Part shown: positions 30,343-54,789 of the stretch, in pieces
How the letters are laid out: each line of letters starts with the position of its first letter
How positions within the stretch are numbered: the first letter of the stretch is position 1
Assembly (NCBI GenBank): GCA_030407315.1
Contig: JALQPE010002307.1
Location: forward strand, 62,001-126,000
Length of the DNA: 64,000 nucleotides
Source: Asparagopsis taxiformis
Lineage: Eukaryota; Rhodophyta; Florideophyceae; Bonnemaisoniales; Bonnemaisoniaceae
Direction of reading: 5' to 3'
The notes under the pieces: generated by a model
What the model was told of the DNA's origin: nothing
The model's database searches: none
The model's input: only the letters and a program-made list of their open reading frames with translations
Position numbers and translations under genes: made by a program

Positions 30343-30375
30343 GTCTGTGTTTTCGGAAGTGGACGCGGACGTCCA
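30343..30375 (+). repeat. Terminal inverted repeat, left end of element 1
   Basis: 33 bases matching the reverse complement of 50201-50233 with two differences. Followed by CTCTAGTAC on both ends a few bases further in. Confidence 0.75.
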
Positions 30376-30429
30376 GTCTCTCTAGTACGGGTCCTAGTCG
30401 GCCCCGAGATTTACTAGAACAAATGAACG

Positions 30430-30695
30430 TCCGCGTCCGAAAAAAAATAAAAAATTTTTGGATGCGGACGTCCACTTTCTCTAGTACATATGGCGGAATA
30501 CTAGGGCCCGACATCCACTTTCTCTAGTACGTTTGGCGGAATACTAGGACCCGACATCCACTTTCTCTAGTACATATGGCGGAATACTAGGACCCGACAT
30601 CCACTTTCTCTAGTACATATGGCGGAATACTAGGGCCCGACATCCACTTTCTCTAGTACGTTCGGCGGAATACTAGGACCCGACATCCAGTATAC
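30430..30695 (+). repeat. Subterminal repeats: GGACGTCC motifs and five 43-bp tandem copies
   Basis: From 30481, five near-identical 43-bp units each begin CTAGTAC and contain ATGGCGGAATACTAGG and CGACATCCACTTTCT. They start at 30481, 30524, 30567, 30610 and 30653. Isolated GGACGTCC or CGTCCGCG motifs precede them. Arrays like this near transposon ends usually bind the transposase (known for CACTA and related elements); binding here is inferred. Confidence 0.75.
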
Positions 30696-30819
30696 AATAT
30701 ATCAGCGAAAACCGGGAGGGAAGAAATTACAGCGGATGGTAAATTCAGGGCCCATATCGGACCGTATTTTATTCTCTCATTTACGAAACTGCTCGTATAC
30801 AATACGTCTCTCTAGAATA

Positions 30820-30995
30820 GGAAATACATATCTGGTCAGAATAGGAAATAAATACCCGGTTAGAATAGGAAATACGTATCCAGCCAGAATACGGAATACG
30901 TATCCAGCCAGAATACGAAATACGTATCCAGCCAGAATACGGAATATGTATCCAGCCAGAATATGAAATACGTATCCAGCCGGAATACAAAATAC
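30820..30995 (+). repeat. 24-bp tandem repeat array
   Basis: About seven copies of a 24-bp unit containing AATACGTATCCAGCCAGAAT, degenerate at the left end. No stop in one plus-strand frame, but the translation is only a simple repeat and is not called a gene. Confidence 0.8.
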
Positions 30996-32408
30996 CTGTC
31001 AGCATATCGTCGATCACCCATTCCCTCACTATCGCGTTCTCCCTACCATCCGAACGCCATGCACCACCATCCGCACATACTTCAAGAACCCTCACGACCT
31101 TGATTACAAAAAATCCGCTCCTTCCCAATTCCATCCCGCTTTCCTCGACACCACCCCAGCCCATTAAATCATCAAGACATCAAACACGAACATGGTCAGC
31201 AAAATCTTACACCACTTGAAACCCACTCTCACTTCTATCGTATGCCCCAAAATATACACATACCAGAAACACCTCACAGCTTCATTTCCCATCTTCCTAC
31301 ATCCCTTCTTCACTCTCCTTCAGTCCTGCCGTTCCTGCTTCACCACTCCTGCATCACATACAAAACATCAACCCCAACAGTCAGATTCAAAAGCAACGCT
31401 TACCACGACAGATATCCTAGAAACTTCCTTACTTACCTCTCATCCATCCTACACACAATACAAACCATGATCCAAAAACCTTGCAATGAATAATCAAAGT
31501 CAGCAGTCCATATCTTCGCAAAACAAGTCTTGGTGCTCAATGAAACTTACCTTCCGTTATCACCATTCCTGCATCATCTACGCAACATCGGAATCAACCA
31601 CAACAGTCAGACCCAAAACCAACCTTCCCTCGCTGCTTACTTTCAAAACTCGCACACTTACCTTCGCTCCACACAATACACACCATGAGTCAACAGGCTT
31701 CCAATGAAAAATATCGCATCAACGGAAATAGTCAGACTCAAAACCCACGCTTCCCTCAATGCATACCCTCAAGATTCGCGCACGTACCTTCGTCCATCCT
31801 CTACACTAAACAAAGCAAAGTCGGTCAAAGAATATCAGTCGGTGATGAGGGCGGAGTGGAGCCTGCGGCGTCGACCGGACAGCTTTCAGCGTCCGCTTAA
31901 GTCTTGCTGTGCATACTCGAAATCATCGCCGGCAGTGAGATTGAGTATGGCCCAAGCCATGGTCTCTGAATCCCCGAACAATGAGATCCGGATCGAGAAC
32001 AACGAATATAAACATATAATCATATATATGAGAATCCATTTGCTTTCCTTACATGATCCGTGGCATATCCGCTGTAAAGCACATTCAGATTCCACGAAGT
32101 TCGGAAATAAAAAAGTTTATTATTACAAATGAATTAATTGAAAATTCATCTGCCAGGGTGGTCGTTCGTCCTTCCATGCACACGTTGCCAGCACGCAATG
32201 TGATGTAACAGTTGGAAATGATTGAACTCTCGGTTAAATTCCACCGTTGGGATGTCAGCTGGAGTGAGCACAAAACTACTACCCACAAAACTACGAACAA
32301 GTTACATTCCAAGTCTCGAAAGCACCACAAAAATAAAATTGGTCGCATCTGGACGGCACAGTCTCCCCTGTTCAGCTCGCAATCCTCCCTTTTGCGTCAA
32401 AACTCGAC
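30996..32408 (+). other. Left non-coding region of element 1 with diverged ~200-bp tandem repeats
   Basis: Pyrimidine-rich on the plus strand. Two or three diverged copies of a block of about 200 bases, each with a TTCCTGCATCA... start and a CACACAATACA...CCATGA end, lie between about 31,330 and 31,810. Short frames here are low complexity. The last 300 bases hold the transposase promoter. Confidence 0.5.
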
Positions 32409-35400
32409 ATGGAATGCAAGTATGAAGGGTGCTTCTACTACTGCGTAGATGCTTATGCGCTCGCGCTGCATGAGCGAACGTGTCGCTACCGTTTCAACCC
32501 CTCTCCCCAACATTTCAACAACGCTCGTGTCCCTGCCGTCACCCATGAGCCTGCTCGAAACGGCCACCATGATTCCCCGCAACCCAGCTCCCCAGACCCA
32601 GAATCTGGTCGTGCTTCCTCCAGCGACTCACCCTGTGACGCTCCACTGCCACCAGCCTCAACCCCCTCCCGCGCAGACCTCCTCGTGCAATCCCTCGCCG
32701 CCAGTCTCACAACCCTCGAGTACAAGGCCGGCGCTGGCCGCGTGAGCGAAGTCATCACCATCCTACAAGACCCCGCATTCTCCCTAGAAAAGTTCAACAG
32801 CGCCGTTCGCACCGTAGAAGAATGTCGCCACGTTACCGCTTCCATGGTCGAAACACATTTCCGCACCGAAGGTTACAAGAGCCACATCATTCCAGACAAA
32901 ACTGGTAAGTACTCGGCACAACTGTACCTCCGCGACCCAGTCGACATGCTCCGCAGGCAGTTAGCACTGGCTAACGACCAAAATACTCTCTTCCACCCCT
33001 CCCCACAGACCACCCCAGACGGCACCGCAATATTTTCTCATCCCCTACACACAGAATTCGCGAAAACGCTGCACCAGGTTACTAGACAGCGCGTTCAGCT
33101 CTCGGAAGATCCACAGGTCGTATGGGCAGAGGAAACTGATCCCACACCTTCCTCCTTTGCCGGCCTCCTCCAAGTGTACTCCGACAAGAGCAGCACAAGC
33201 CTCAAGAGCTCCGCAATCGTCGCATACCCCATACACGTCACACTGCTCAACTTCTCCGCCCCCCTCCGTCGCCACTGCATCCGTACCGGCCTCACCATCG
33301 TCGGGTATCTTCCGTACATTGTTAACCCTTCGTCCAACGCCTTGTTCGGTGATGAAATGCCGACAACCTCTAGTTCTGCTAGTCGCGCTTGCAAAATTGA
33401 TATTCTTCATAAAGCACTCGAAAAAGTGTTTTCGTCCCTATCCACCGCGTTCTCTTCCGGGTTCCCCTGCACAGACTCCACTGCAACTGCCCGCCAATGC
33501 TTTCCCATCCTAGCCAATTATTGCTGCGACTTTCCAGAGGCCAAAGAGCTGTCATGCACTCGCAACAGCACTACCACCACACATCCCTGCCACCGCTGCT
33601 ACATCCCCGCCACTCAACTTGAATCCACCGCGCCACACCAGCCCCGCTCCCTCGATGATACACGCTCTGCACGCCAAGAGAGCGCTCAGGAGCATACAAC
33701 TGCTCCGCTCGAAGCTCTCTCCCTCCTCGAACAACACTCTGTCCTCGAATCGACCGCTCTTCTACCCAGCAACAGTCCCCTAGACCCCTACAACATTTTC
33801 TCCTTCGAGCCTCTGCACAATCTCCACCTCGGCATCTCAAAGCTCATCAAACAGTGCATTGTGCACCGCCTCAGCTCCCCAGACCTCACCACCACCACTG
33901 CCTCCCATTCCGGGACACCTCGCACCTTCAAGAAGGTCAAAAAATCCATCTTCGCCGGCTCAAACAGCATTCTGTCCGCTATCGAACGCGACTACTACAT
34001 CACCGGTCTTCATGTCGACTTCTCCAAGGGTGAGAAGGGCACCAATTTGAACGGCCTCTTCACGGAGGACGGCATACGCGGCATGCTCGCAGCCAAAGAC
34101 TATCACCATGTCGACATGGTGTTCCCTTTCATCGCAGCATTCATTGACACATGCTGTGACGAAGTAGATACAGCCCCCCTCACTTCCATCTGCACGCAAT
34201 ACTCTGACCTCGTCGCATGGGTCATGAAACGCGGTCGCATCAAGCACTGGACTGCCGCCGAACTAGAAAGCCTCCAAAACTCCATTTCCTATTTCAAACA
34301 ATCAATGCTCTCCACCCTCGGCCCATTCCACACCACAGGTCTCAAAACTTTCAAGTTCCATCTTCTAGACCATCTTCCCGGTGACTTGCAGAGATATGGC
34401 GCCCTGGAACACATTGATGCAGGCCCTTACGAACACTCGCATATTCTGTTCAAACAGAGTTATAGGAAAACCTCTCGAAGGCGCTCCACAGCCATGGAAG
34501 AGACTATTCGCCACATGGAATTCTCCTTGGCCACTCCAACTGGTCACACCCCATCCAACACATTGGGAAACCCACGCATGATATCGCCCACAGGCGGTGC
34601 AGTACTCGTTCGCGACGGATTCACCGTTGCACTGCACGACTTTGCCTCCCTGCTGCCCGATGAAACCCTCCTCGTTGCAGATATCGACGGGCAGCCCGAT
34701 CCTGCCACTCTTTTGCCTCTGCACAACTCCTCGTTCCCGTCTGGCACCATAACGCTATTCCAGCAACTCGGTGACACAGCTGCACAAGCGTTCCTCACCC
34801 TCGCTAGACTGCGCGCCACGGCAGAAGGCCCTCCAATACATGACATGGACATTTCCGTCACCGTGGTAAAGTCCGCCTACGTCATGGGAGGGTACGTCCC
34901 AGATGCCGACGACTTTGACCCGCACAGTGGCATGCTTCGCCCCACAAACGTGTCGAGGCACAAGCAGCAGCGCGTCTTTGCAACTTCATCATTCGGCCCC
35001 GCAAAGAGATCGCAGTACTCCTTTTTCGTCATCTCCGGAACTGCCGATGACTACAGAACCATATGGGTAGGGCGCGTCCTGGCACTGGTACGTCTGCAGT
35101 CTCCAAACCTGTTTCAACCTGTAGAACTCGCTTTCGTTCAGTATATGACCTGCTTTGCCCCAAAAACCGCTGTGGAAAAATCACTTGGGTGCATTTGTTT
35201 AAAGTGGTCCACATGGGACCCGGACAACGGATCCGTTGACAGCAATGACACTGCATCCCACAGTGCAGGTGGTCCTTGGTTTGACCTCATTCCTGCATCT
35301 ACTATATCTGGCACCGTGCACATCGTACGAAGTAACTTTCCAGTCAAGCCATTTACGAAACAAATGCACTGGTCGGACCACCGTTTCTATCTCAACCGCT

Positions 35401-35450
35401 TCTACACCAACACTGATTACCAGTTCACAGATGATAATGAAGAAGAATAA
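32409..35450 (+). CDS. Plavaka-like DDE transposase of element 1
   Basis: A 1013-residue intact frame. The N-terminus has a zinc-finger-like Cys/His cluster (CKYEGC..C..HERTC). The catalytic core follows the Plavaka pattern: VYSDKSSTSLKS..AYPIHVTLLNF..VGYLPYI with Asp259; ILANYCCDFPEAKELSC with Asp374; a CHRC zinc knuckle (394-397); FEPLHNLHLGISKLI at the position where relatives have a D/E plus LH block; and FKFHLLDHLPGDLQRYG..YEHSHILFKQSYRKTSRR with Glu675. In relatives this enzyme cuts and joins transposon ends using a DDE metal centre. No stop or frameshift is visible, so it could be functional. The C-terminal 300 residues are family-specific and unassigned. It converges on the coiled-coil gene, 77 bases away. 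Confidence 0.8.
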   Translation: MECKYEGCFYYCVDAYALALHERTCRYRFNPSPQHFNNARVPAVTHEPARNGHHDSPQPSSPDPESGRASSSDSPCDAPLPPASTPSRADLLVQSLAASLTTLEYKAGAGRVSEVITILQDPAFSLEKFNSAVRTVEECRHVTASMVETHFRTEGYKSHIIPDKTGKYSAQLYLRDPVDMLRRQLALANDQNTLFHPSPQTTPDGTAIFSHPLHTEFAKTLHQVTRQRVQLSEDPQVVWAEETDPTPSSFAGLLQVYSDKSSTSLKSSAIVAYPIHVTLLNFSAPLRRHCIRTGLTIVGYLPYIVNPSSNALFGDEMPTTSSSASRACKIDILHKALEKVFSSLSTAFSSGFPCTDSTATARQCFPILANYCCDFPEAKELSCTRNSTTTTHPCHRCYIPATQLESTAPHQPRSLDDTRSARQESAQEHTTAPLEALSLLEQHSVLESTALLPSNSPLDPYNIFSFEPLHNLHLGISKLIKQCIVHRLSSPDLTTTTASHSGTPRTFKKVKKSIFAGSNSILSAIERDYYITGLHVDFSKGEKGTNLNGLFTEDGIRGMLAAKDYHHVDMVFPFIAAFIDTCCDEVDTAPLTSICTQYSDLVAWVMKRGRIKHWTAAELESLQNSISYFKQSMLSTLGPFHTTGLKTFKFHLLDHLPGDLQRYGALEHIDAGPYEHSHILFKQSYRKTSRRRSTAMEETIRHMEFSLATPTGHTPSNTLGNPRMISPTGGAVLVRDGFTVALHDFASLLPDETLLVADIDGQPDPATLLPLHNSSFPSGTITLFQQLGDTAAQAFLTLARLRATAEGPPIHDMDISVTVVKSAYVMGGYVPDADDFDPHSGMLRPTNVSRHKQQRVFATSSFGPAKRSQYSFFVISGTADDYRTIWVGRVLALVRLQSPNLFQPVELAFVQYMTCFAPKTAVEKSLGCICLKWSTWDPDNGSVDSNDTASHSAGGPWFDLIPASTISGTVHIVRSNFPVKPFTKQMHWSDHRFYLNRFYTNTDYQFTDDNEEE

Positions 35451-35527
35451 ATCTAAATCGCAGCACTCTATTGATAATGTACTACATGATAAGCCTTCTA
35501 GCCAACGTCACATTTACTGCACTAATT

Positions 35528-37812
35528 TCAACCATCCTCCATTACGCCAAAACCGTTATCAGCAGTTGCTGCATGGCGCCGCTCCATGCCCCCATACTGT
35601 GGGGCATTGATTTCTACATTCAGGTTTGCACTCAGGTGTCCAGCATATGGGTCAACGACGAAAAGTTCTGCGCCAATTAGTCCTTGCGCAATCACACAAT
35701 CCATTACAGCACCGAGGTTTGACGTAATATGCGATTGAATCCAATCCTCGGACACTAGAACAAGTGATGAGCAACGGTTTACATCATCAACGACATGAAC
35801 AATTCCAGACCCCTCTCCGCTTTGCCACACTTCAACAGCCTCTCTCGTCACAGTACGGCTTGCAAACACATGCCGTGACTGTGCACTAGTCCGCTGTTCG
35901 CTCTCGACAACGTCCGTTTCTTCCCTTGCTTGCGAGCCTTGGAGACAAGACATGCAGTACACCACCATACCAACTAATTGCTGAAAAGCTACCCCCACAT
36001 ATTGACTGTACCGCCTTGTAAACTCCTTCTGCCGTGCACCTCCTTTCCCCTTCGGTTCATCCAAACACTCCACAGTAGTCACTAGCCAAGCATCCAGGCG
36101 CGCCAGCGTTAGTATGCTCGTCTCTATGTCCATTACTTGTTCTGGTCGTATCGAATAACCCCTGAAGATGTCCAGCACATTCACAGCTACTCGGTTGTTA
36201 AACCATGCATCACCATTCACTTCCATTTCGAAGCTGTCAGGAACCATGCCTTTGCTGTATCGCAGCTCTGAGAACGGTGCCGTTCGCCACCTCCCCATAT
36301 CCAAATCACCGTTGCTTTCCCGTTTCAAAAGCTTCTCAGACGCTTCGCGCTTTTGATCCTCTCGCTCGTCCATCTCAGCTCGCGTCGTCAGCATCGTGCA
36401 TCTAGACATTAATTTCGTGTACCCCAGCGAACCGAACAATCTGTCCCTCGCATTACGCTTCCGTGCACTCATCACGTCGGACAGTTTCTGCGTCACCTTC
36501 ACTTTCAATTCCTTGCTCCCCGCCACAGCCTCTTGACAGCACACACGCTGCTCCTCATCGGAAAACACATCACACCACGGACTTTGACGCAGTACGTGTC
36601 GCACCAAGTCATTCAGCAGATCACTCTCGTCTCTGTACGAAGGTGTATACCACTGCAGATTCTTGATGATATAGCCCGGAGGGGTAGCAATATATCCTAC
36701 ACCGTTTTCGCTCCAAAGTGTCCCTTCTACCGGCTCTACCTCGATGGTACGTCCAGTCCAACGTCTCTGCGTTTGTTCCGCTATAGGGTCCAGCTCCATA
36801 GTCTCGTTCTTGCACCACTTTGTCAGGTTTTCCTCAACCGCCCTAAGAACTCCAAGGTATTTCACAGGAATGGCTTTCTGTATTTTCGACTTACCGCCAC
36901 CGTGATCACTGATTCTACCTGTTCTCGCAATTGCAGTAAGGCTGGCATTTTCCGCCTGCAGAGTCTTCACCTTAGCCTCCAACGCAACTATCTCCGTGGT
37001 GAGCGCCTTGTTTGCTATGTCCTGGCTAAACACTTTTTTTCCAGCTCCGCGATCTTCTTCTTCTGCGCATTGATGCGACTCGCCATTAAATCGATGGATT
37101 CCGGCGGATGCAACCTCTCTGCCCTCACCGTCCCCCCATCTCGCACGCTATCGGGAATATGATGTCCTCCATCGGCAATAGCCTGACGTCGCGGGGGCGT
37201 TACGCGCATATTTGGCACCAATGACAGTCTGTTGTGACGAGGCCCGCACTCCGGCTGCTCTCTCCCCTCAGTACCACCTGACCGCCGATGATAGTTGGCA
37301 TCCTGTGAACGTTGCTCAGAAACAACATCCCTTGCCGCTATCCTCGGGTCCCTGACTGCATTACCTGCTGGGGCTGATGTACTCGGCATAGTTGGCGCAG
37401 TGGGGGTCACAGCCTCCAGTGTCTCGCGAACCCCCGGCTGGGACTCCGTCTGCAGCACCTCCGCATCTGCCAACCCGGGAGAAACTACCTTTGCCATAGC
37501 ACTCTGCCGCAATTCCAACATGTTTTGAGCCACTATCATGTCATCATCATGATGTTCACTGTCCCTGCGAGCACGCTTGCCTCGGTCAAGCCCCATCTCT
37601 CTCCGCGCCGTTCCTCCTTCCTCACTTTCTCGCTGCGGATCCCCAGTTCTGCGCCGGTCCGTCTTGCGACTACCGGACCGCGGTTCAATGCTGCCGGTAG
37701 GCCCAGACCGCTTCTTCGCACGGGATTGTCGGGCACTCGATACAGCAGCTGCTGACCGGGTTTTCTGGAGGCCCGGAGGCTTTGGAGCTTTCTTCGCAAT
37801 ACGCGGCGGCAT
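35528..37812 (-). CDS. Coiled-coil protein of element 1, two frames joined by a probable -1 frameshift
   Basis: Frame 0 starts at the ATG at 37812 (MPPRIAKKAPKPP) and ends at TAG 37015-37017: a basic Pro/Arg-rich, disordered protein ending in a coiled coil (SRINAQKKKIAELEKK). The second frame (35528-37033) has no ATG near its start and continues the same coiled coil: VFSQDIANKALTTEIVALE..KVKTLQAENASL. The switch occurs exactly at A AAA AAG (37033-37039 on the minus strand), the canonical X XXY YYZ arrangement. The fused product would be about 760 residues. The remaining 400 residues are helical with no recognised domain. A distant likeness to the 508-residue protein of element 2 (coiled coil, then an R..R...LG(F/Y) block) is suspected. 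A sequencing error in the A7 run is the main alternative. Confidence 0.6.
37033..37039 (-). promoter_or_regulatory. Candidate -1 frameshift slippery site A AAA AAG
   Basis: On the minus strand the zero-frame codons read GAA AAA AAG, giving the heptamer A AAA AAG. Slipping one base back leads directly into GTG TTT AGC, the start of the second open frame. The zero-frame stop is 16 bases past the slip site. Confidence 0.5.
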
Positions 37813-38043
37813 AATGAAGCTTTCCCGAAGCGATGGAACGATTGAGTTGCACGAGATACAAAAAAGATTGCTGTATAGTGTCGGTAACCACAACGGTCTG
37901 CGATGAACGTTCAGGTCAGGTCAAGTACCGGAGAATACGCCAACAGCCCAGATTGTATACGGTAGGCAGTCATCAACAGTATTTAATGAGGTACAATTAC
38001 AGCTGTCGAGCTAGGCCGCGAGCACCCCTATGTCCGGAAGACG

Positions 38044-38241
38044 TCCTGATTTGAATTAAAATTTGGGCTATTCTCAAAAACATGCACATGTGAACATGTT
38101 TTTGAGATGGGGGTGTGCCGTACGGCACAATCGACCCGCTGAAATCGATGTTTTTTGCAATATTTTTTTCTGCCCTGAATTGTAGAATTTCTGGGCTGGA
38201 CAGCAATGCAACTGAGCTGGACATCCACCGGGCGTCCATTT
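38044..38241 (-). repeat. Internal ~200-bp repeat, copy A
   Basis: Contains, in order on the minus strand, CGGTGGATGTCCAGCTCAG, CAGCCCAGAAATTCTACAAT, the perfect palindrome GTGCCGTACGGCAC and a hairpin with arms TCTCAAAAACATG / CATGTTTTTGAGA, ending CCCAAATTTTAATTCAAATC. It lies upstream of the minus-strand coiled-coil gene. Confidence 0.85.
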
Positions 38242-38471
38242 CAACTTGGTCTTGTATTTTGCATCTGCACGCATAACAGCAACCAAGCAGTCAGGTTCAC
38301 TGCTCGGACGAAGTGCACCTAGAGTGTGAACGATTGGTTTTTGACAGGCGAGTACTGCTCAATAGGTTTCACCCTGGACTAATGGTGGCTGGACATGCTG
38401 CATTATATGATATACTTCAACTCTGGAACGTAGCTTTATTTGTAGTCGAAATGAAAACATCTTTCGTGACC

Positions 38472-41400
38472 CTAATTCCATGCTCTAAACGCTGTCCCAT
38501 AATGAACGTAGAGCTCCTGCCCCGGACGGATATCGCGGATTGCACGTACTACAATGATCTTCGGATTTTCTAGGTCCTTCGCCTTGAGCTTCTTCCCCGT
38601 CGAACCGCTGCTGTAGTTCTCGACAAACTCGACGTTGGCCATCCGCCTGGTGTCTTCCGCCGGAGTGTCCTCACCTCGCAAATACCGCGGGTCGTTGATG
38701 AACTGCGCCGAACAGAACGGAGCCGGAACAATCCAAATTGGATGCTCGATGTTTTCGTCGTCCTCCGCTGTTGCATACAGCTTGATGGCATACATCAAGA
38801 ATGTTTCCTTCGTTATCGCCATGTGACCCTCTCCGTACGCGAACCTCATCGACTCCTTGCTCATATCAGAGTACACAACAGTTCCGTAGTATGCACATAC
38901 TTCGTCGCCAACATTAAATGTCTGTTCAGCGAAGAGCCCTCTTCCTGCATTTGGATGCTTAATCAGCGATGGTCGAACGCTCAATTTTTTCGCAACACAA
39001 TCGTGTGCCCGCATCACGCGAGGGTTTTCAGTTTGCAACCAGCGGCGCAGGGAAGGTGGCCAATAATGTACCGGTTTTTCCATGTGCTCGTGCGACGCAA
39101 TCGACTCTGGGCACAGCTGCCAGAGGTACTGCCGAATATATTTCGGGAACCTCTGGTACAGGGGAAGGCCAGGTGGGGGTTCGATGATCCTGCGTTCCCT
39201 CTGCGTACGCATCGTGACAGAGGGGGACGCCAAGAACTTCTCAGCACTCTGTTTCGCTTCTGTCGTGACCCTCATGTCAGTGTTGTTTGAAAGAATTACA
39301 CGTGACATGACTGCACACAGCTTTGGAAGCGATCGTGCCACACACAATTTGTCCATGTCACTGCCGACGAAAACACGGTGCTCAGGCAAGCTCATAGCTG
39401 CTTTTCCCGTTGCGAAAGTGCCAGAGAATGGATCGACAACAATATCACCAGGCTGTGAATGCTGGCTGATCAACTCCATCATGAGAGCGACGCTCTTCTG
39501 CTCTGCACGAACTCTGACCGTAGCACCGGTTGTGCTCCTTGTTCGCCACACCATCTCATTCGAATCGATGGCGGGCATATTGATGGTGACGTTGCACCAC
39601 GCCGGGTACGTGCCGTCCATGTATCCGTGGTTCCTATAGGCCACCATCTCGCTTCCGGTCTTGAACGGAACACCTCGCTTCCAGAAGTGGATAGCGACCT
39701 CTGCCATGTTCATGCGTTGGTACCTCTTCCGCCCCGGCATTTGATAGAGGTGCCCAGGTAGTCGGACAAACAACAGAGGTACCTCGTCAACGAAGAAAAC
39801 TGAATTCCGAACGACGTCCTCCTCCTCCTCGTCCTCCTCCTCATCCGCACTTTCTTCGCCACTGTGCTGCGATGCTTCGGAGTCCGAATTCATGGACGTA
39901 ACCTCTTCTTCATCCGACCCGTCATCACTGGCAGCAGCATCGGTTGGGCCTTCTGACTGCGGTCCTTTGTACGTTTCCAAGTAATGGAACCATTCGTAGA
40001 ACTGCAAAACGGAGCAGAACACGATGCCGTGGCCACCGGGGCGCAACAGCTCGTCAAACACTTCGATGCTAGCCTGCATATCTTCTGCAGTTAGCCTGTC
40101 GTACGAAGAGTTGGAATCGTTCCTCTTACGACGAACATTGTAGGGCGGATCAGTCAGAATGAGCTGAACGTTGCCCGTGATGGGCACGTGTTCTCGGCTC
40201 TCGTCGGCACTGACCAAATCTTCGAAAGGGACGTCGTACACCCGGCAATACTGACTCATTTTCGAAAGAAAGTCCTTTGCGAGAGCCTGCCCTTCACTTT
40301 CCTGCTCTTCTGTCGCATGGGGTGACGGTGACGGGGGAGACGGCCCTTGGGCAGTAAGACTGGTCCTCCCAGGTCCAAGTTGAAGCCTGGTTGTGTGTCT
40401 TGTCGACGGAACCAAACCTCTCCCTCCTGTGTTGCGACGAGTGGGAGTGTCATCAACCGGCTTGGGGACCTTTTCTGCGTCCGCGGCTTGTGGTGCCGGG
40501 CGGAGGACAGCCATAACGTCTTCGTCGAGGGTGTCAAAGTACGCTGGCAGCTTGTCCGGATTTCCGCTTGACAAGTATATTTCCAGCGCCCCCCAGCGGT
40601 CGGACTCCGGCCAGGTGTACAGGTCCGGGTTGACGATAAGAAACTGCAACCGGTCGAAGAACTTCCTCACAAGGTCCCTAAATGCACTGTGCTGCGCACT
40701 GGTTCTTGTCTCTACTTTTCCACCATATCCATCAGGATGAGATAGGGGAGCTTTGTCGTGGTAGAGATCTAGCTTCTGCTCCATCGGTGCGAATAGACCT
40801 TCATCGAGCACGTCAAACCAATGCTCACTGCTGTCGAAAATGATGTACGGCGCCATCAACTCTTCGAAGCTGGAAAACTTTGCGGCGAAGGCCACATCGG
40901 TCCAAGCATGGTATAAAACTTGAACCACGTAACAAGCTCGATTAGTGCTTTTCCGATGGGCTGGGACGCGTGCGGCTTCGTTCCCCTCTTCGGCCGCGTC
41001 GCCTATTCGGCGACGCGGCAGGTTCTTGTTGTGATTTCGGATGATAGACAACGCTTGGAAATACATCAATACCTCGAACGTTTCCGGTGGAGCAAGAACG
41101 AAGGCGCTTGGTTCCCCGCGCTGCGGCGCCTGTAGTGGCGAAGGAAGCATGTTACATCCAATAAGGAAGGTCTGCGGCACGATCCCAGAAAGGATGCAGT
41201 GCTCAACCCATTGCCCGATACGCTCATCCTGTCTTGAAAACTCGGCAATCGGTAATGCCAGACGAACAATCTGCTTGGCTCGCTCAACGTTCATCTCTGC
41301 CATGACGATTTCGGCAACATCCGCCTCGACTCCAGCATTCTTCGAACGACCGCTGAAGGACATGCTGAGTCGACCTTGCAGCGCCAGAAATTGTTCTTCC

Positions 41401-41669: not shown

Positions 41670-41996
41670 AATGGAATGAGTGGAAATTCGGTACAGGATG
41701 GCGACCGCTCGGCGAGACAGTCAAATTTGACGACGTATCTCGTGACGTTTGCACTCTTTCGTGAGGAACACTGGTTGATATCGAACGGAACAGAGTATAC
41801 GGGTACACAGCACTGGAAAGGTCTTGAAACCCGTAACCGGTGTAGGTAATAAGTTGTGACGGATACGTGGTAGAGAAAAAATTTTAAAAAGATTGTGATT
41901 CCCTGCCTTTGAGTGTTGTACTGCAAGGCCGCCAGTCACATAGGTTGTCACAGGTGCATCACGCTTACCAGGTGAGCGACATCCGGACGGCCACTG

Positions 41997-42184
41997 GACA
42001 TGGGGATGTCCAGCTCAGATGCATTGCTGGCCAGCCCAGAAATTCTACAATTTCGGGCAGAAAAAATATTGCAAAAAACATCGATTTCGGCGGTCGATTG
42101 TGCCGTACGGCACACCCCCATCTCAAAAACATGTTCACATGTGCATGTTTTTGAGAATAGCCCAAATTTTAATTCAAATCAGGA
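41997..42184 (+). repeat. Internal ~190-bp repeat, copy B
   Basis: Same block as copy A in plus orientation: GGATGTCCAGCTCAGATG start, GTGCCGTACGGCAC palindrome, long hairpin, CAAATTTTAATTCAAATCAG end. Located about 330 bases upstream of the methyltransferase-SET start, in the opposite orientation to that gene. Confidence 0.85.
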
Positions 42185-42439
42185 TGCAGATATTCGTCTT
42201 CTAGCATTGTCAGAACACATTCGTATAACCACATTTGGAGAACCTGAGCCCAGAGCTATCGGTTTTGGCGGGAGCTAAGCCATATCTCATATAATCAGTA
42301 ACTACTTCCCGCCAGCTGAGTGGTGGAACCCCTGCTATTTCTACCAACGAGACATACGGGGTGTCAACTCGGCAATCGTATATGATTTGGGTGCTAAATT
42401 TATTCAAGAGACGAATGGGCTTCGAAAAGGAGCCCAACA

Positions 42440-42910
42440 ACGTCTTCTTGTGATCCATGGGTATAGGACTATTCTATTCTTCTCCAGGCTTCCACCGTAG
42501 CCGCCTCCTCCGCCTCCGTTAATGGAAAGAATATCCGAACCGCACCTCAACATGTTCTTCTTGTGATCCATGGGTACTGACATCTCACATGCTCTCCAGG
42601 CTTCCACCGTAGCCGCCTCCTCCGCCTCCGTTAATGGATCGAATATCCGAACCGGACCTGAACATGCTTTTCTCTCATCCATGGGTACTGACATCTCCAA
42701 GATGTGAGTCACATGTTCTCCAGGCTTCCTCCGTAGCCGCCTCCTCCGCCTCCGTTAATGGATCGAATATCCGAACCGGACCTGAACATGTTTTTCTTCT
42801 CATCCATGGGTACTGACATCTCACATGTTCAACATGTGAGATGTCAGTACCGGAGAAGTTCTCCGGGCTTCCTCCGTAGCCACCTCCTCCACCTCCGTCT
42901 GTGGGAATCA
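42440..42910 (+). repeat. ~110-130-bp tandem repeats with a 39-bp near-perfect palindrome
   Basis: Four units share CATCCATGGGTACTGACATC, a CTCCAGGCTTCC(A/T)CCGTAGCC segment, CTCCTCCGCCTCCGTTAATG and ATATCCGAACCGGACCTGAA. The last unit forms a palindrome at 42811-42849: TACTGACATCTCACATGTT and its inverted partner, mismatched only at the centre. Confidence 0.8.
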
Positions 42911-43364
42911 ACACAATATCACCACTGCGTCTTACCTCACATCCACATCTCTCCGGGATGAAAACGGACGGACGACATAGGGTTTGTAGACGTTTAGAAT
43001 CTTGTTAGAAAAAAGTAAACGAAAGAGAACTTCTCTTTCATTGAATGACATCTCGTCCCTGTCGCAATATGTTCCATTTTCAATTTCTCGGGTTGCACAC
43101 CCATCATGGGTGATCAAGGCCTGGATCGAACCCTCCGAGGGTCTTCGATGGATAGGACAGATAGTGGAAGGCTTTTAAGCCTGTGACCAAGCGGCTATTG
43201 ATTAATCAATTAATTGGTTGGAGGAAGGAAATTACAGAGGAAATATAGCTGAGTACGGTGCTCGCGATAGCTGTTAGGTTAAAGTCAAATATGTTTTTCG
43301 ATTATTTTTCGTACGGAAATGCCTTGCAAAAGACGATCCTTTGTCGTTCTCCTGGAGGGAGTCC

Positions 43365-43453
43365 GATTGTGCCGTACGGCACACCCCCATCTCAAAAACA
43401 TGTTCACATGTGCATGTTTTTGAGAATAGCCCAAATTTTAATTCAAATCAGGG
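43365..43453 (+). repeat. Internal repeat, copy C (half unit)
   Basis: Only the downstream half is present: GTGCCGTACGGCAC, CACCCCCATCTCAAAAACAT, the hairpin and the AATTTTAATTCAAATCAGG end. Essentially identical to copies A, B and D over this part. Confidence 0.85.
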
Positions 43454-43757
43454 TGTCTAATTTGGCCACAACGGCCCCAGGAACCGGCCGCCGCCCCGAG
43501 CGGGGTCATCACTGGCTTCTGTAAGCACTAACTGTGAGGCTAAATGGCGCCGAAAGATGGGTCGATTCCAGGCTTCAAGCCTAAGTTATGCTAGGGAGAA
43601 ATCTTCTTCCGTGTTTCATCATGGTCCCGCCTTACTCCCTCAACAGAAACACTACTCACCCATCACGTTACTCATATTCCGTGCACTTTATATTAGTAGT
43701 GAACCCGCCTGCTTAGTTGCTGCAATGCGTGGATGTAGGCAGCACACGACCAACCTG

Positions 43758-43954
43758 AAATGGACGTCCGGTGGATGTCCATCTCAGATGCACTGCTGGC
43801 CAGCCCAGAAATTCTAAAATTTCGGGCACAAAAAATCTTGCAAAAATCAACGATTTGGGCGGGTCGATTGTGCCGTACGGCACACCCCCATCTCAAAAAC
43901 ATGTTCACATGTGCATGTTTTTGAGAATAGCCCAAATTTTAACTCAAATCAGGG
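43758..43954 (+). repeat. Internal ~200-bp repeat, copy D
   Basis: A full unit starting AAATGGACGTCCGGTGGATG and ending AACTCAAATCAGG. It lies about 350 bases upstream of the ParB-like gene, in the same orientation. The first part carries the GGACGTCC motif found in the element ends. Confidence 0.85.
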
Positions 43955-44301
43955 TGTTCCCCGGATAAAGGGGTGCTCGCAGCCGCCCCAAAAGCCGCCT
44001 AGCTTGACAGCTGTAATTTTAACACATTACACATCAAGGACACTGCCTGCTTCACGCCACCTCGTCAGGTTTCGAGAGCCCGACTCGGGCCCGTTCCGAA
44101 CGGACACTCACATCTCGATTGCCTGTCTTGCATTCCAGCGGTCACGATAGGTGTGTACCTAACAAAATTTCGGTTGTATTGTGTTATTATTTCCAGCGAT
44201 TGGCGTTCACGACCATTCTTCAACTTAACGTGAAACATACCATCCACATCACTCGAATACGTCAACGTCAACCATCTCTTTTCCTTTCCAACTCAACAAC
44301 C

Positions 44302-45912
44302 ATGGCGGATACGCATTTCAGCAGTTTGTTTTCAACGGTTTGCGGCGATCAAGTGAGCGCGTCAGCGGAGTCGCGCGGACTCAAGCGCGGCGTCGATGTC
44401 GACTTGTTTGCGGACGTGGACGGTGCGGCTGTGCATATTGGGACGGCTTCGGTGAGCACTGCTGGTGGCGATGTTGGCCTTCCGCGCACGCTGCACAACC
44501 ACAAGCTGCCGGAAACCGACGAGGCGGACTATATCGTCGTGCGCAACATTGCGACTAAGGACAAGTTCAAGGACCTCCCGTTCCCGTACATGTTTGATGG
44601 CGCCGAGGGACCGCCGGAGACGATGGGTGGAGCATACGCCGCGGCGTTTTACCCTTGGGATACTCGGATGATGCGCCCCGCTGCGGAGGATGGCCCTAGC
44701 GACATTCGTACCCCTGCTGCAGCGTCAAACTTCAACGCAGCGACGAACCAGGCCAGCTCGGGACGGATGCCCAGTACCGGTCCAGCAGGCGAAATCACTG
44801 GTTCGGGGGGTACGAAGCATCCAGCACGCTCCGTCCCGGTTTCGGGAGGCACGAAGCGCCCTGCTCGCTCTGCCAGAGCCTCCAGTGGAGGCACGAAGCA
44901 CCCTGCTCGCTCCAACGTCACCGAAGCTACTACGCAGGACGTAACCGAGGTGGACGACGAACCGGAGGTGGCGGAAAGCATTCGTGAGCAGCAGGGGACG
45001 CAAATTACGGTGCCCAAGTTTGTGACGTCGGATTACGTCGGAGAAGGAGCGACTGTGTTGGTGAGGCAGCTAGTGGAACCGGCCGTGACCCTTCGGGATG
45101 TGAAAGAAGACCACGTGGAGGACCTGCGCAACAATATGTTGGCTGTGGGGTATGTGAGCTCTTCGCGTATCACTGTGACGGTGCTGAGGTCGCAGAACAC
45201 GCATCTGTCCGCCGACACGCGTCTGTTCCAGAATGGCAAATTCCATGCCAATGCGAACGTGACCGTGATCGACGGACTGCATCGTCTCAATGCTATGCAT
45301 AGCATTGCGGATGACTTCACGCGCCTCACCCGTATGCACAGAACCAAGCTGCCACAGGACGCAAACCGCTTGCGCTGGGTTACTCAGCCTCTGGATGTGT
45401 ACTACCTTCGCCGCAAGGACGACAGTGATCTTCAGCCTCATGAGATCATCCACAAGAGTGCAGAGTCGAACCATACGACTGGGACGCAACTGACGGAGCG
45501 CTCCCTGGTTCGAATCTTGTCGTCCATCCAGCAGTTCATCCGTACGATTGCTGTTGCAAACAACGTGGAAAACGCTGGCGACTTGCGTGAGTCTGATGTC
45601 ATCCGAACATTGTTCGAGGCGCAGTTCATGGGGATGATGAATTCAACGAACACGGCTCGGCGGTGGACGCGTTTGGCTATAGCAACGCTGAAGCATCCTG
45701 TTCTCGACGACGTGTTGCGTGAGCTGAACAATTCCGAGCGCCGCAACGAGATTGGGATAACGCACCTGGACCACAAGATAGTGCGCGAGTTGCTGGAAGA
45801 AAACTTTGTCTTCGTCTTGCGTGGTCTTTCGGAGTACTTGAACCCTGCTCATGGCGGACGTCCGGATGGACGCTTTGACGTGAACGACTTTATACATACG
45901 TCCGTCGCGTGA
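44302..45912 (+). CDS. ParB-like (ParB/Srx fold) protein of element 1
   Basis: 536 residues from the ATG at 44302 (ACAACCATGG, a good eukaryotic context; the frame is open upstream to 44119). An N-terminal 100 residues is unassigned. A Pro/Ala/Ser linker follows with three SGGTKHPARS-type repeats (44,800-44,920). The ParB-like domain spans about 235-340: EPAVTLRDVKEDHVEDLRNNM, then VTVIDGLHRLNAM at about residues 320-332, the DGxHR signature. In bacteria and phages this domain is often joined to N6/N4 DNA methylases, and in ParB it binds CTP. That pairing fits the methyltransferase-SET gene nearby and the ParB-methyltransferase-SET fusion in element 2. Its stop overlaps the opening of the next frame with no gap. 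Confidence 0.75.
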   Translation: MADTHFSSLFSTVCGDQVSASAESRGLKRGVDVDLFADVDGAAVHIGTASVSTAGGDVGLPRTLHNHKLPETDEADYIVVRNIATKDKFKDLPFPYMFDGAEGPPETMGGAYAAAFYPWDTRMMRPAAEDGPSDIRTPAAASNFNAATNQASSGRMPSTGPAGEITGSGGTKHPARSVPVSGGTKRPARSARASSGGTKHPARSNVTEATTQDVTEVDDEPEVAESIREQQGTQITVPKFVTSDYVGEGATVLVRQLVEPAVTLRDVKEDHVEDLRNNMLAVGYVSSSRITVTVLRSQNTHLSADTRLFQNGKFHANANVTVIDGLHRLNAMHSIADDFTRLTRMHRTKLPQDANRLRWVTQPLDVYYLRRKDDSDLQPHEIIHKSAESNHTTGTQLTERSLVRILSSIQQFIRTIAVANNVENAGDLRESDVIRTLFEAQFMGMMNSTNTARRWTRLAIATLKHPVLDDVLRELNNSERRNEIGITHLDHKIVRELLEENFVFVLRGLSEYLNPAHGGRPDGRFDVNDFIHTSVA

Positions 45913-45962
45913 CTGCAATAGCAAATTCTCTGTACGCTGCGTTTGGGCGCCCAAAGAGTATT

Positions 45963-48235
45963 ATGCGCAAGTCATTTCTGAGCACAGAGATGGCAATTGG
46001 GTCGGTTAAGCAGCCGAAGGAGTTGCAATGGCATCTCACCAATGCCATTGCAATGTATAGAGGGGACGACCGGAGCAGTGAGGTTCGAATGCGACGGAGA
46101 ACCACGCGTTTACAGGATTTGGAAACGAACTTGAAAGAGTTTTTCAATCCGACATTGAAGAAGAAGACTAAGGCTCGACGCAAACGCCGCCCTTCTGCTG
46201 CCAATGTGAGACTCACTCACAAGAAGCAGCGGAATGTCGAACATGAGCCTGCTTCGCATGGCATCCGCCGCCGTTCACAGCGACTTCGCTCGACGGGGAG
46301 CACACGCCTCGAGGAAGAAGAGCCGGTTGTGGTACAACAATCCGCCGGGGAAGAAGAGCAGGCCGTTGTTGATAAACCCACCGATCAACAACAAGCCACT
46401 GCTTCCGGTGATGAGGTTGACGAAGACTCCGCCCGTTCCCCCGATTCTGCCGTTGAGATTGTCCCCCAAGATAACCAACGTGCTGGTGCGACTCCCTCCA
46501 ACCAAGAATCTGTCCATACCGCTTCGGACGAGGAAGACAAACAGGGTGCAGACGAGGGCCAAGTCGAAAGCAAGGGGGTCCGCGAAGTGACAATTACATT
46601 CACTGTTCCGGAAGGAGTGGAAGTCGATGAAGACGGTTACATCGTTCGTGACTCTCCTTCTGAACACGACCTCCTGTTCGACGACCGTATGCCATCTCTT
46701 CCTGACGATTTCGAAGACCGAGCCGAAGGGCATCATCTGGCGCAGCGTCCCGCGGACGTCATCGCATCGGTGAGGGTTGGCTGTCTGCCCCCGATTGAGC
46801 TCAGGTTGTTATTGGAGAGTGTGGAAATCGATGAGGAGGGCAGAGAGGTGAGGTATTTGAAGCAAGTGGCGATGGACCCTGTGTTTGAGGGGCTGCATAT
46901 TCCGGAACAACATCGGGCTCGTCATCTTGTTTTGGAGATCGACACCATCTATCCGATGTTTTTCGCAGCGTGGAAGATGGCTGCCAAGGCGATGTGTGAG
47001 CCTACATCGACGTTTCTACCCTCGAGGCTGGACTTCGCCCAGGTTGCGCGAATGTCTACAAGCTGGAAGGATTCGTATGAGGCCGGCACTGGTATGGCGT
47101 ACTTCCACAATTGCCGAACGGAAATCAACGAGCGAGGGTATACGGTGATGCACAATTTCGCGGATGTAAGCTACCTCGATGCGTCGGACAAGTTCCCATT
47201 TGACTTGGGTCTCATGGAAGAAATTCCTAACCAGGAATTGTTTCGGTACTTTTTGGGAACGTGGGAGGGGGAGGAGGTGCACAAGGACCCTGGGAACCGG
47301 CAGCTGTGGAGTCCCATTGTCAATACAGGGGACGATGAAACAGATGAGAAGAACCGGAATGAGGGGAGGGCTCGCTTCACGTCTACGCGCCACTGCCTGG
47401 TTGACTATGCCGAGAACGATGAGACGCATATCGACCGGTTCAAGTTTGTGACGCGGCGAGCCCTGCTGGATGTGTGGTTGGGAATCCTTGTCCGGCTGAT
47501 AGGGCTGGAGGAGTGCGGTTTACCGGGAGAAAAACTTGTCATGCCGGCATCTGGGGGACGGTTTTTGATAACGGGAAAGGGGTGTCCTCGGCAGGTCCCA
47601 CACAATGATTTCCCTGTTCCTCCTCGCGACCGCAAAGATCAACTTCCGGGTTACTTTGTTATTGCCAACGGAGATGACCCATTCCCTATCTGGGTGTGTC
47701 CAGGGTCCCACAAGTACGTCTTTTCCAAAGCGCTGGAATTAGATATGTACGCCAAGACGATGAAGCTGAAAAGGTAATCGTTCCGCCACGTTCAGTCTTC
47801 ATCGGTCACGGCCATGTACAACATGCCGGGGCAGGGCATGTCGACAGAGTTGTGTCACACACGACAACGAGGTATCACACGTATTTCAGGAATGCGTCGT
47901 ATCCGATTCCCGACAATGTTTCGTTTGGTTTCATCAGGCGGTTGGGATTCGAAGAAGAAGTAATCGCCAATGCTCCGCGCCGGTCTGCCAGGCAAAGTCA
48001 ACCGGCACCTGTCAATGTTCGCCACAAGACAGTTGTTCCCATCCCGGTCAAGAAAGATCGTAGGCCGAAGACAGGGCAGCTCGGAATGATGCGGATGAAG
48101 ACGACAGAACCTCGCAAGGATATAATGCACACACGGAGTGGGGCCCCGGTAGTGCCTCTTCTGCCGGGAGAACCTGGATATCTAGTTCACTATCATAGTG
48201 AGGACGAAGAGGAAGAACAGTTTTCCGACGGCTAG
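45963..48235 (+). CDS. 2-oxoglutarate/Fe(II)-dependent dioxygenase of element 1, in two frames
   Basis: Frame 1 (first ATG 45963, stop 47777) has a basic, KR-rich N-terminus, a long acidic Gln/Glu/Asp linker, then a folded half. That half ends with the iron motif PHNDF (HxD at about 47601-47609) and GYFVIANGDDPFPIWVCPGSHKYV. Frame 2 (to 48235) supplies VIVPPRSVFIGHGHVQHAG, with the distal iron histidine near 47822, and TTRYHTYF, with the probable 2OG-binding Arg near 47870, then a basic tail. Together they form one double-stranded beta-helix dioxygenase, the fold of TET/JBP and AlkB enzymes. The frame change may be a 29-nt GT-AG intron (GTACGT...ATTAG), whose removal gives GSHKYVRQDDEAEKVIVPP, or a one-base lesion. 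Substrate unknown; oxidation of modified bases is a reasoned guess. Confidence 0.65.
47717..47745 (+). other. Possible 29-nt mini-intron or insertion in the dioxygenase
   Basis: The segment begins GTACGTC and ends GGAATTAG. Removing it joins CCCACAA to ATATGTACGCC and merges the two frames into one reading frame across the dioxygenase core. It is far shorter than the other introns inferred here (87-144 nt), so an indel is at least as likely. Confidence 0.35.
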
Positions 48236-49929
48236 ATATCTTAACAACAACTACTTTAGCAAACAATTATCGAGAATATAATCATCTCCTTTATCACTTT
48301 CAATCTATGAACCTACTATAATGCACTTCCGTTCCATGCTTTCAAACTAGATTGTCCATTCCCTAGTGGGTTGGAGCATGATTTCCAGGACGATTCCCTC
48401 ACATCTCTAGACTCGATGGTCTATGCTAGAAATAGCAGAACAATTGGGTTTATACGTGCTTCATCGCCAACTTGCTTCTGGTAATGGGTGGACGTGCACG
48501 ATACACGATCAACCTGAACTGGACGTCCGGTGGATGTCCAGCTCGATTGCATTGCTGGCCAGCCCAGAAATTCTAAAATTACCGAAAAATCAATTTGGTG
48601 GCCCAGCATCTCCTGTGCCGAAAATTCCAGCAGTCACTTCTGATATACTATATCGTAGTAGTAGTAGTCTAGACGTGTTTCGCACTTGTACGCATCAGGG
48701 AAGGCTGCACGGAAGGTTGAGACTACGCTACTTGTGTACCGCGTCGTCTGAAATAGCGAGTAGTGTTTGTTGTATAGTTGTGGAGTATGCGTCTAGTGGT
48801 TTGTAAAGCTTGCAGAACGGGATAGGGATGTGGGTGGCCCTATTTTATGAATACATGAGTACCAATATTCAGGGTTGACAAAGCGGAAAGTCATAGGCTC
48901 ATACATGTTTGAGATTGCATAGTGGAGAAAATATTTACATCGAAATTTACATGGAGGAGATGGAGGTTTCAAGGATGAGGTATGAGAGGAAGAAAATTCT
49001 TCTGTGGTATGAGGATGTGTTCTAAGGGGGGATGGAATCCTGGGATGGTACAGGGGGAGGTGGAAATGTACGGAGTGCGGGTTTAGAATGGAGTGTGATT
49101 CGGAGAGGAGTGCCGAAAAGCATATTATGGGGATTTGGGAGACGCTGCGGGGTGTTGGGGTAGTGAGGGCGGAGGAGGTGTTTAGGTGGGACCGTAGGAG
49201 GGTGCGGTTGGAGGCGCCGAGAGGAGGGGGTTTTAGGAAAGTGAGGAGAAAGAGGGGGGGGGGGTGGCGTCTGTTCTGGCTGTGGTGAGTGGGGATGTGA
49301 TGGTGAAGAAGGGGGTTATTGTATTTGGGGAGGGAGGGGAGTGGGAGGAAGGGTGCGAAGTGGGGGGTTGATATGTGTTTCAGAGCGGGGAGGTTTCTGG
49401 GGAGACGGCGGGGGAGTGGGAGCGTGGGCCAGTTGTGGTGGTGTATACGGTATCGAAGATGCGGATGGCGTGGGGGCATGGAGCAGCTGAGGGAGGGAGG
49501 GGTGGAGCAGGTCGGGTACGGGATGGGGACTGAGAGGTTTTGGAAGAGTAAGCTGCAGGGGAAGTTTGTGGAGAGGGCGAAGGAGAGGGGTTGAAGGTAG
49601 AGGAGAGAGGGTATTGAAGAACAATACGTTGCAAAGGTGATGGGGGAGAGCATGGTCGAGGAGATAGGGGGTTTTTTGCCCTATTCTGAGGTAGTATGAG
49701 GACTGGTTATACGAAATCTGTACGGTAGAGCAGAAAAGTAGGTATGGAATGGAGGTGTGCACCGTGGAAGCGGGGATAGGTAGCTAAAAATGCGTGCTAG
49801 AGTGGTATTGGGGGTGTTTGAGGTACAGTACGGGGGAGGTGAGCACCAACTGGAAGGGGGTGTGAGCGAGAGGATGAAAAAATTAAAGACGAAATTGGAG
49901 TCGACCGACAAGGAAAAATAGAGTGGTCG
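48236..49929. other. Right non-coding region of element 1
   Basis: Contains a partial internal repeat (copy E, about 48,508-48,582: GGACGTCCGGTGGATGTCCA then GCCAGCCCAGAAATTCTAAA). From about 49,000 to 49,650 the plus strand is strongly purine (G)-rich. A 286-codon minus-strand frame there is Pro/Ser/His/Leu low complexity and is not called. Confidence 0.5.
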
Positions 49930-50233
49930 CCGTGATGGATGCGGACATCCATGTCGAGCACGGCGGCAGAAATTTCTGGGCTCGAAATTTTTGAATTTCT
50001 GAACCGGCGCCCGTCCTAGGTGGACATAGACATGGCGGAAGTCCATCCCGAGGGGGACATCCGTGGTACTAGAAACAATGAATGTTGCCCTAGTAATACT
50101 AGACGTACTAGACCACATGGACGTCCGGTTCTAGGCGGACATCCAAAAATACTGGAGAACATGGACGTCCGCCTAGTAATACTAGGTGTACTAGAGGTTG
50201 TGGACGTCCGCGTCCATTTCCGAGAACACAGAC
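49930..50233 (-). repeat. Right subterminal region and terminal inverted repeat of element 1
   Basis: GGACGTCC and GGACATCC motifs alternate with CTAGTA and CTAGAC motifs, mirroring the left end. The last 33 bases (50201-50233) are the inverted repeat partner of 30343-30375. A segment at about 49,970-50,000 (GAAATTTCTGGGCTCGAAAT) resembles the internal repeats. Confidence 0.75.
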
Positions 50234-50851
50234 GCACCCTCGGGTGCAGCGACTGCCCCGGCGGCCACGTCTGAAGAGACGATAACAGCCCCTCTTGGTG
50301 CGGTCACGGCCGCGCGTCCCGTTGCCAACGCTCCTACACCGTCGGCTAGGGGCGCTTCCGATGCGGTAGCGTCGGGTGGTTCTGCTCCGGCCGACCCAAT
50401 GGCAGTCGAAGCTGTCAAGGCGACGACCTCGGTCGCTCTTGCCCCGACAGCAGCGGGAACTGCTATGGCTGTGGCTGTGGTCGAACCCGCCACGAGTAAG
50501 CCAACCTCCGCGGTTGCTACCCCTACGGCGACGGGTGTTACTGGTGCCACCACCGCTGGGGGTACTGAAAAAGAGTCTGAGGGCATACAGGAGGCAACTC
50601 CTAAACCCACCGACGCAACCTCCCCTGGTGGCGAGTCAGTGCAAGTCGTTGAAGACCCTCGATCGCCCACGCGCGCCACGCGTCGCCTCAATGTGACGTC
50701 ACCGGTGGCGACAGTCGCGGCCGCAGTGGCGGCGGCGGGGCAACGAGTCGCCCGAAGGCGTAAAAGGGCTCAGCTCTCTTCCCCTTCAGCGAGCGTGGGG
50801 TCTCCAATTAACAAGGACAGGCCGACTCGTCGGACTCGTACGCGCCGTTAG
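50234..50851 (+). pseudogene. 3' portion of the gene interrupted by element 1
   Basis: The frame resumes in phase with 30342: GCA-CCC-TCG-GGT here against GCA-CAA-AC at the left edge. It is Ala/Thr/Pro/Val-rich and disordered, ending in a strongly basic tail (ARRRKRAQL, TRRTRTRR) before TAG. The intact protein would have been near 950 residues if the TGA at 30014 is read through. Target-site copy at 50234-50241. Confidence 0.55.
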
Positions 50852-54768: not shown

Positions 54769-54789
54769 CCACTACGGTGTTGGGAATGA

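Follow-up and report, generated by a model that had tools for sequence, protein, structure and literature searches.

A giant Plavaka-type transposon of a red alga with a methylase-SET protein and a ParB-dioxygenase fusion as predicted chromatin-modifying cargo

Does a transposon of a red alga bring along the proteins to set its own chromatin state? The question is raised by a 64,000-nucleotide stretch of Asparagopsis taxiformis contig JALQPE010002307.1 (the window in what follows), in which a first-pass annotation had recognized a DNA transposon of about 20 kb with genes for DNA and chromatin modification. We think it likely that the element is a giant cut-and-paste transposon of the Plavaka type (18.6-22.3 kb), recently active and present in many copies, that its cargo provides self-directed chromatin control, and that the copy in the window is partly dead. 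The copies share common ends, have identical 2-bp flanks in five of eight cases, and contain four genes, all without introns; the cargo frames are open in many copies. The functions of the cargo proteins are predicted from their domains.

The window copy extends from 30342 to 50234 (19,893 bp) and is bounded by CGTCTGTG and CACAGACG, each end lying one base outside the position first claimed (30343 and 50233). The inverted ends themselves stood up to inspection. Counted from 30342 and 50234, the arms pair at 31 of 33 and at 41 of 47 bases, the latter corresponding to terminal inverted repeats at 30342 to 30388 (forward strand) and 50188 to 50234 (reverse strand). Genome searches were run against the assembly that contains the window (141.5 Mb in 3156 contigs), and each scored no more than its best 33-45 matches. 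A query of the left 1 kb found 51 matches (best 40 of 1618 candidates), of which 31 were full-length from the first query base, 30343. With the right 1 kb, all 40 matches (best 40 of 1485 candidates) extended to query base 1000 or 1001. Across the copies, conservation begins at CGTCTGTG and stops at CACAGACG, and the flanks differ, the sole exception seen (L013) lying at a contig end. Identical outermost bases in copies with differing flanks indicate a repeated element with exact ends. The search for further copies ending at the same bases, proposed as a check in the first-pass annotation, thus found many.

Eight copies could be delimited at both ends, with lengths from 18.6 to 22.3 kb: C1904 (18,558 bp), C1684 (19,428 bp), the window copy (19,893 bp), C284 (20,276 bp), C192 (21,374 bp, from coordinates), C1850 (21,692 bp), C2140 (21,883 bp) and C2167 (22,321 bp). 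From the contigs matched by the end searches, the delimiting covered these eight copies and nine contigs on which the two ends could not be matched up and which were left uncounted (C104, C2663, C2232, C1967, C2475, C113, C2384, C100 and C1622).

An 8-bp target duplication had also been suggested for the window copy. Its two candidate halves, GCACAAAC and GCACCCTC, are identical at only five of eight bases and take in bases of the element. The 8-bp flanks of the eight delimited copies disagree when compared by eye, and uninterrupted sites also speak against a duplication of this length, which was rejected. The 2 bp next to the ends are identical in five of the eight delimited copies (TA, CA, AA, GT and AA); the chance of at least five matching pairs is 4.5e-5 at 1/16 per pair and 4.3e-4 at 1/10. 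The target duplication of the element is 2 bp, not 8 bp, and it is absent at the window copy.

The window copy interrupts a repeated coding sequence that we read as probably gag-like, with no family match in the Pfam scan. Its left half lies at 27890 to 30341 and its right half at 50235 to 50851, both on the forward strand. An empty-site query with the flanks joined at 30341/50235 gave 78 matches (best 40 of 72 candidates). In all 38 other scored copies of the repeat, 374-380 bp separate the halves (exactly 375 bp in 33 of them), and in none of the 38 do the halves abut. Five copies were fetched, four with 375 bp and one with 374 bp; the one read in translation (L064) has a continuous frame through the stretch of about 375 bp. 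The interrupted frame thus occurs elsewhere without the inverted ends, and its junction there differs from the joined one, so the observation named in the first-pass annotation as a refutation, an unchanged junction, was not made. The insertion in the window replaced about 375 bp, hence the lack of a duplication there. Were the element excised at these ends, the gene would not be whole again, contrary to what had been supposed from the common phase before and after the element. The phase is the same because 375 and 19,893 can each be divided by 3. The loss goes back either to one aberrant insertion accompanied by a deletion or to recombination after two insertions close to each other.

The transposase gene (32409 to 35450, forward strand, 1013 codons) is open in the window copy. 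Its product matches PF18759 with an E-value of 2.9e-24 and 86.3 bits (cut-off 26.3) over profile positions 35-318 of 325, in agreement with the earlier assignment as Plavaka-like; we take the Plavaka transposase to be of the RNase-H type. All 45 scored genomic matches (best 45 of 2540 candidates) are uninterrupted, and the gene is also uninterrupted in C284 (20,276 bp, flanks AA/AA).

A second gene, at 38472 to 41669 on the reverse strand and likewise open in the window copy, encodes a protein of 1065 residues that combines a DNA N6/N4-methyltransferase with a SET domain in one fusion. Both domains, already named in the first-pass annotation, exceed the curated Pfam cut-offs, PF01555 at residues 501-774 (E-value 3e-15, 57.2 bits, cut-off 26.7) and PF00856 at residues 909-1058 (E-value 1e-6, 29.5 bits, cut-off 22.4). 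The order of the methylase motifs is permuted, with DPPY ahead of DPFSGTF. The 43 scored genomic matches (best 43 of 4139 candidates) are uninterrupted without exception. Among the delimited copies, the gene is uninterrupted in C2140 (21,883 bp, TA/TA) and broken in C192. Six relatives share 28-33% identity with the protein; a seventh match, 99% identical, is probably from the same organism.

The ParB-like protein and the 2-oxoglutarate (2OG)-Fe(II) dioxygenase that had been annotated separately are both present as cargo, not as two proteins but as frame-broken halves of one. In the window copy, the N-terminal half with a ParB/Srx fold (44302 to 45912, forward strand) ends at a frameshift near 45870, and the C-terminal half, a putative 2OG-Fe(II) dioxygenase (45879 to 48235, forward strand), contains a second frameshift near 47760. 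In C192, a single frame of 1403 codons (1310 residues from the methionine at residue 94) spans both open reading frames (ORFs) of the window. The gene is also uninterrupted in C2167 (22,321 bp, CA/CA), and in all 33 scored genomic matches (best 33 of 4611 candidates). An intron between the two ORFs was rejected, because other copies carry one uninterrupted frame.

The N-terminal ParB fold and a DGxHR motif place the fusion protein in the ParB/Srx superfamily. DGxHR and the H-x-D...H...R set are retained in all six sequences compared, with the relatives at 22-32% overall identity. H-x-D...H...R is common to most 2OG-Fe(II) enzymes, and therefore not diagnostic of TET/JBP. A model of the dioxygenase domain from three sequences had a mean predicted local distance difference test (pLDDT) score of 29.1 and was useless; one built from five full-length relatives reached a mean pLDDT of 41.5, with the ParB part alone usable. 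No 2OG or TET structure was among the fold matches listed for the low-confidence model, which is uninformative at that confidence. This half may act as an eraser, as the first-pass annotation proposed. NCBIfam profiles gave only matches far below the cut-offs.

A fourth gene, absent from the first-pass annotation, encodes a coiled-coil-like protein whose coiled-coil matches are all below curated cut-offs. Its frame is broken into two ORFs in the window copy (35528 to 37812, reverse strand) and forms one ORF, of 761 residues from the ATG, in C192 and C2663. With the transposase and methylase-SET genes open and the ParB-dioxygenase and coiled-coil-like genes frame-broken, the window copy is partly dead. 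In C192 (21,374 bp, AA/AA), the transposase and ParB-dioxygenase genes are both uninterrupted. The mobile unit of about 20 kb postulated at first, of Plavaka type and with methylase-SET and ParB/2OG cargo, is thus upheld: many copies end at the same bases, and the delimited copies C2140, C2167, C192 and C284 contain intact genes.

The host had been approached in a fungal frame, which had to be abandoned. The window (GC content 50-54%) encodes a PsbP-family protein (PF01789, E-value 6.3e-15), and contig C469 holds 11 of the genome's 13 phycobilisome matches. The allophycocyanin alpha chain on C469 is nearest to PDB chains 5tjf and 5y6p, which we take to be red seaweed proteins. The PsbP and phycobilisome genes, together with long uninterrupted nuclear genes, identify the host as a red alga and exclude a fungus. 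Red algae often have genes of a single exon (PMC12115072). No C5-cytosine methyltransferase (PF00145) was detected in the genome by a search whose control succeeded in 10 of 14 genomes, all prokaryotic, and which intron-split genes could escape. Removal of 5-methylcytosine (5mC) laid down by the host is therefore not the obvious role of the cargo.

The most economical reading of the predicted domains is that they would serve self-directed chromatin control, with the ParB half as loader and the oxygenase and methylase-SET proteins as editors of marks other than 5mC or of histones. The Plavaka transposase would bind the inverted ends and mobilize the unit. The ParB half would bring the fusion protein to element DNA, where the oxygenase half would oxidize a methylated base, or a methylated residue of a histone or other protein. 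The methylase-SET protein would write N6-methyladenine (6mA) or N4-methylcytosine (4mC) on DNA and add a lysine methyl mark to nearby histones or other proteins. Jointly, these activities would let the element fix its own chromatin state, one that permits transcription or transposition and does not depend on host cytosine methylation.

Several observations weigh against this proposal. All biochemical activities of the cargo proteins are predicted. Sequence searches of Pfam and PDB gave no match to the putative dioxygenase domain, and its models are of low confidence, mostly with pLDDT below 50. The SET domain reads N-D-P-R at the position of the canonical N-H-S-C motif. Motif IV of the methylase is altered in four of the six relatives (P0006 DPPQ, P0007 YPPY, P0008 APPQ and P0009 DPPL), which indicates that DNA-methylase activity is not kept family-wide. 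The 2-bp flanks are unequal in three of the eight delimited copies (the window copy AA/CA, C1850 TT/TC and C1684 TC/TT), and the interiors of C1904, C104, C1684 and C2232 are rearranged. Uninterrupted frames were counted among the best-scoring matches only (45, 43 and 33), so that the counts speak for the existence of many intact copies and do not give the intact fraction. The ratio of nonsynonymous to synonymous substitution rates (dN/dS) between copies, mostly 0.2-0.66 with a full range of 0.05-0.80 and one pair without nucleotide differences, is consistent with constraint; it is a weak measure, because recent copies differ little and some of the frames compared are partial or wrong-ended. 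Conservation across distant relatives of the predicted proteins is the stronger argument for constraint.

In P0006-P0009, the SET region still aligns, and Pfam lists SET in P0006 and P0008 only. From these sequences it looks as if methylase and SET activities were separable.

A more elaborate form of the proposal can be entertained tentatively. In this form, the element would encode a write-erase circuit independent of 5mC: the methylase-SET protein would lay down 6mA or 4mC and a histone mark on copies of the element, and a ParB clamp spreading along that DNA would carry the oxygenase that edits those marks, giving the element a heritable chromatin state of its own in a host where no C5 methyltransferase was detected.

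The altered motif IV in the more distant methylase-SET relatives and the rearranged interiors of several copies would also be expected if the cargo were a passive hitch-hiker, or served selfish regulation without modifying DNA (by controlling the expression of the transposase, the number of copies or the choice of target), with the enzymatic domains as relics. We regard this as rather unlikely, in view of the open frames in all scored copies (45 of 45, 43 of 43 and 33 of 33) and the retention of DPPY, the S-adenosylmethionine (AdoMet)-type motif and the H-x-D...H...R set in this element's family.

Oxidation of 5mC appears distinctly improbable as the role of the fusion protein. The dioxygenase half would then be a divergent TET/JBP enzyme that strips host 5mC to prevent silencing, as proposed for fungal TET-carrying transposons. 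TET/JBP proteins of the PE type, very distant from the known ones, do occur in fungal Plavaka, EnSpm and other transposons (PMC12730594), and the H-x-D...H...R set is invariant in all six ParB-dioxygenase sequences. Against this stand the algal host, the failure to detect a PF00145 methyltransferase in its genome (with prokaryotic controls only, 10 of 14), and fold matches without TET/JBP, an absence that says little at the low model confidence.

Giant viruses often have genes without introns, and ParB and methylase domains of the prokaryotic type, features that would fit integrated giant-virus or virus-like DNA that gained a Plavaka transposase. Such an origin is highly improbable: none of 92 pattern hits in viral contigs was a ParB-dioxygenase relative at the sensitivity of the search, only 2 of 134 such hits gave a methylase-SET alignment, each of only about 50 residues, the Pfam scan of the main ORFs detected neither capsid nor packaging domains, and single-exon genes are, as cited above, common in red algae anyway.

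Within the transposon, the left end is followed by subterminal tandem repeats at 30424 to 31000, in 43-bp and then 24-bp units, possibly a binding array for the transposase or ParB. An internal repeat at 38014 to 38318 is an inverted copy of one at 43681 to 43984, which lies upstream of the ParB-dioxygenase gene; the two flank the methylase-SET gene, and an additional copy is located upstream of that gene at 42004 to 42186. The inverted arrangement had raised the idea of a nested transposon (37984-44029) with the methylase gene. It was not adopted, because more copies of the internal repeat sit before other genes. In C2232 (L033, L034), the methylase-SET module sits in inverted orientation between internal repeats and has a broken frame, which suggests that recombination between these repeats reshuffles the cargo. 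C1904 and C1684 have the same ends as the window copy, and their interiors are mostly unrelated to it at the DNA level (L021-L023, L030-L032); in C1904, one ORF of 219 codons is present twice in opposite orientations. On C2475 (106000-141500, L017-L020), the right-end part of the element occurs three times at a spacing of about 10.66 kb, with extra ORFs of 29.9% identity to part of the dioxygenase half.

Outside the element, the window contains a second locus of related composition. One frame of 1186 codons at 59261-62821 (forward strand) combines a ParB-like N-terminus with a DNA methylase and SET, and its product has 22.9% identity to the first methylase-SET protein. It is probably the cargo of another element. 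A sequence search of PDB with its N-terminus gave no match. The two long ORFs beside it, at 55623-57203 (forward strand) and 57479-58882 (reverse strand), have no family match above cut-off, and a Gypsy-type integrase with a chromodomain-like C-terminus was read from the ORFs at 53352-54771 (reverse strand).

If the predicted activities hold, a mobile element unites a DNA methylase of the prokaryotic type with a histone-type writer, an oxygenase and ParB as loader in one portable unit, and the question whether a transposon sets its own epigenetic state, beyond escaping that of the host, becomes directly testable. Genes annotated as DNA methyltransferases in red-algal genomes might then be transposon cargo. 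Genes labelled 'site-specific' and 'adenine-specific' DNA methyltransferase are shown on the contig that holds the Asparagopsis bromoform (mbb) cluster (PMC12115072, Figure 4 legend); these genes may be transposon cargo of the same kind as here.

The element has a Plavaka transposase, a 2-bp target duplication (2 bp or 3 bp in Plavaka generally) and a dioxygenase gene, here putative, in common with described Plavaka transposons (CMC/CMCT group), some of which carry such a gene (PMC12730594). It differs from them in its size of 18.6-22.3 kb, its methylase-SET and ParB-dioxygenase fusions, and its red-algal host. Its ends in the copies read, CGTCTGTG and CACAGACG, correspond neither to TGT..ACA of PlavakaA nor to CATCA..TGATG of PlavakaB, to which the TET-carrying Plavaka of two Agaricales species belong (PMC12730594); the element is Plavaka by its transposase, and of neither described terminal type. 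The 8-bp target duplication of Zisupton/KDZ is not seen here, and the transposase is Plavaka. The Plavaka-flanked giant repeats of Amoebidium share with it intron-poor genes, great length and a Plavaka transposase, but many genes there are tyrosine recombinases (PMC11244446). Bdelloid rotifer N4CMT likewise joins a permuted PF01555 amino-methylase to a eukaryotic chromatin domain; it is a captured gene, fused to a chromodomain, that marks and helps to silence transposons, whereas the methylase here is SET-fused and borne by a transposon (PMC8885841).

The first-pass annotation knew of no description of the combination of functions; parts of it have been described. The pair of a methylase-SET protein and a ParB-dioxygenase fusion in one element was not found in the literature searched, where most candidate papers were judged from listings or passages. 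The work of Petroll et al. 2025 in Current Biology reportedly concerns giant Plavaka elements, and the present element may belong among those described in it. Giant EnSpm elements of red algae, attributed to the same work, resemble it in that they are giant DNA transposons of red algae and carry several accessory genes (Petroll et al. 2025, via PMC12477816). The same source, which refers to Iyer 2011 and Petroll 2025 for such proteins in green and red algae, describes accessory proteins with ParB and N4C/N6A-methylase domains in algal transposons, exemplified by Sola1-1_Ec32 of Ectocarpus (PMC12477816). Both systems are giant DNA transposons of algae with ParB-like and DNA-methylase domains encoded in an accessory gene, and the second locus of the window has the ParB-methylase arrangement of Sola1-1_Ec32, with SET in addition. 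In the element itself, by contrast, the ParB fold and a putative oxygenase form one fusion and the methylase and SET another, in two genes of one Plavaka transposon. For the ParB-methylase proteins, self-binding and self-modification have been proposed (PMC12477816); the predicted proteins of the present element suggest that it may both write and edit chromatin marks on itself.

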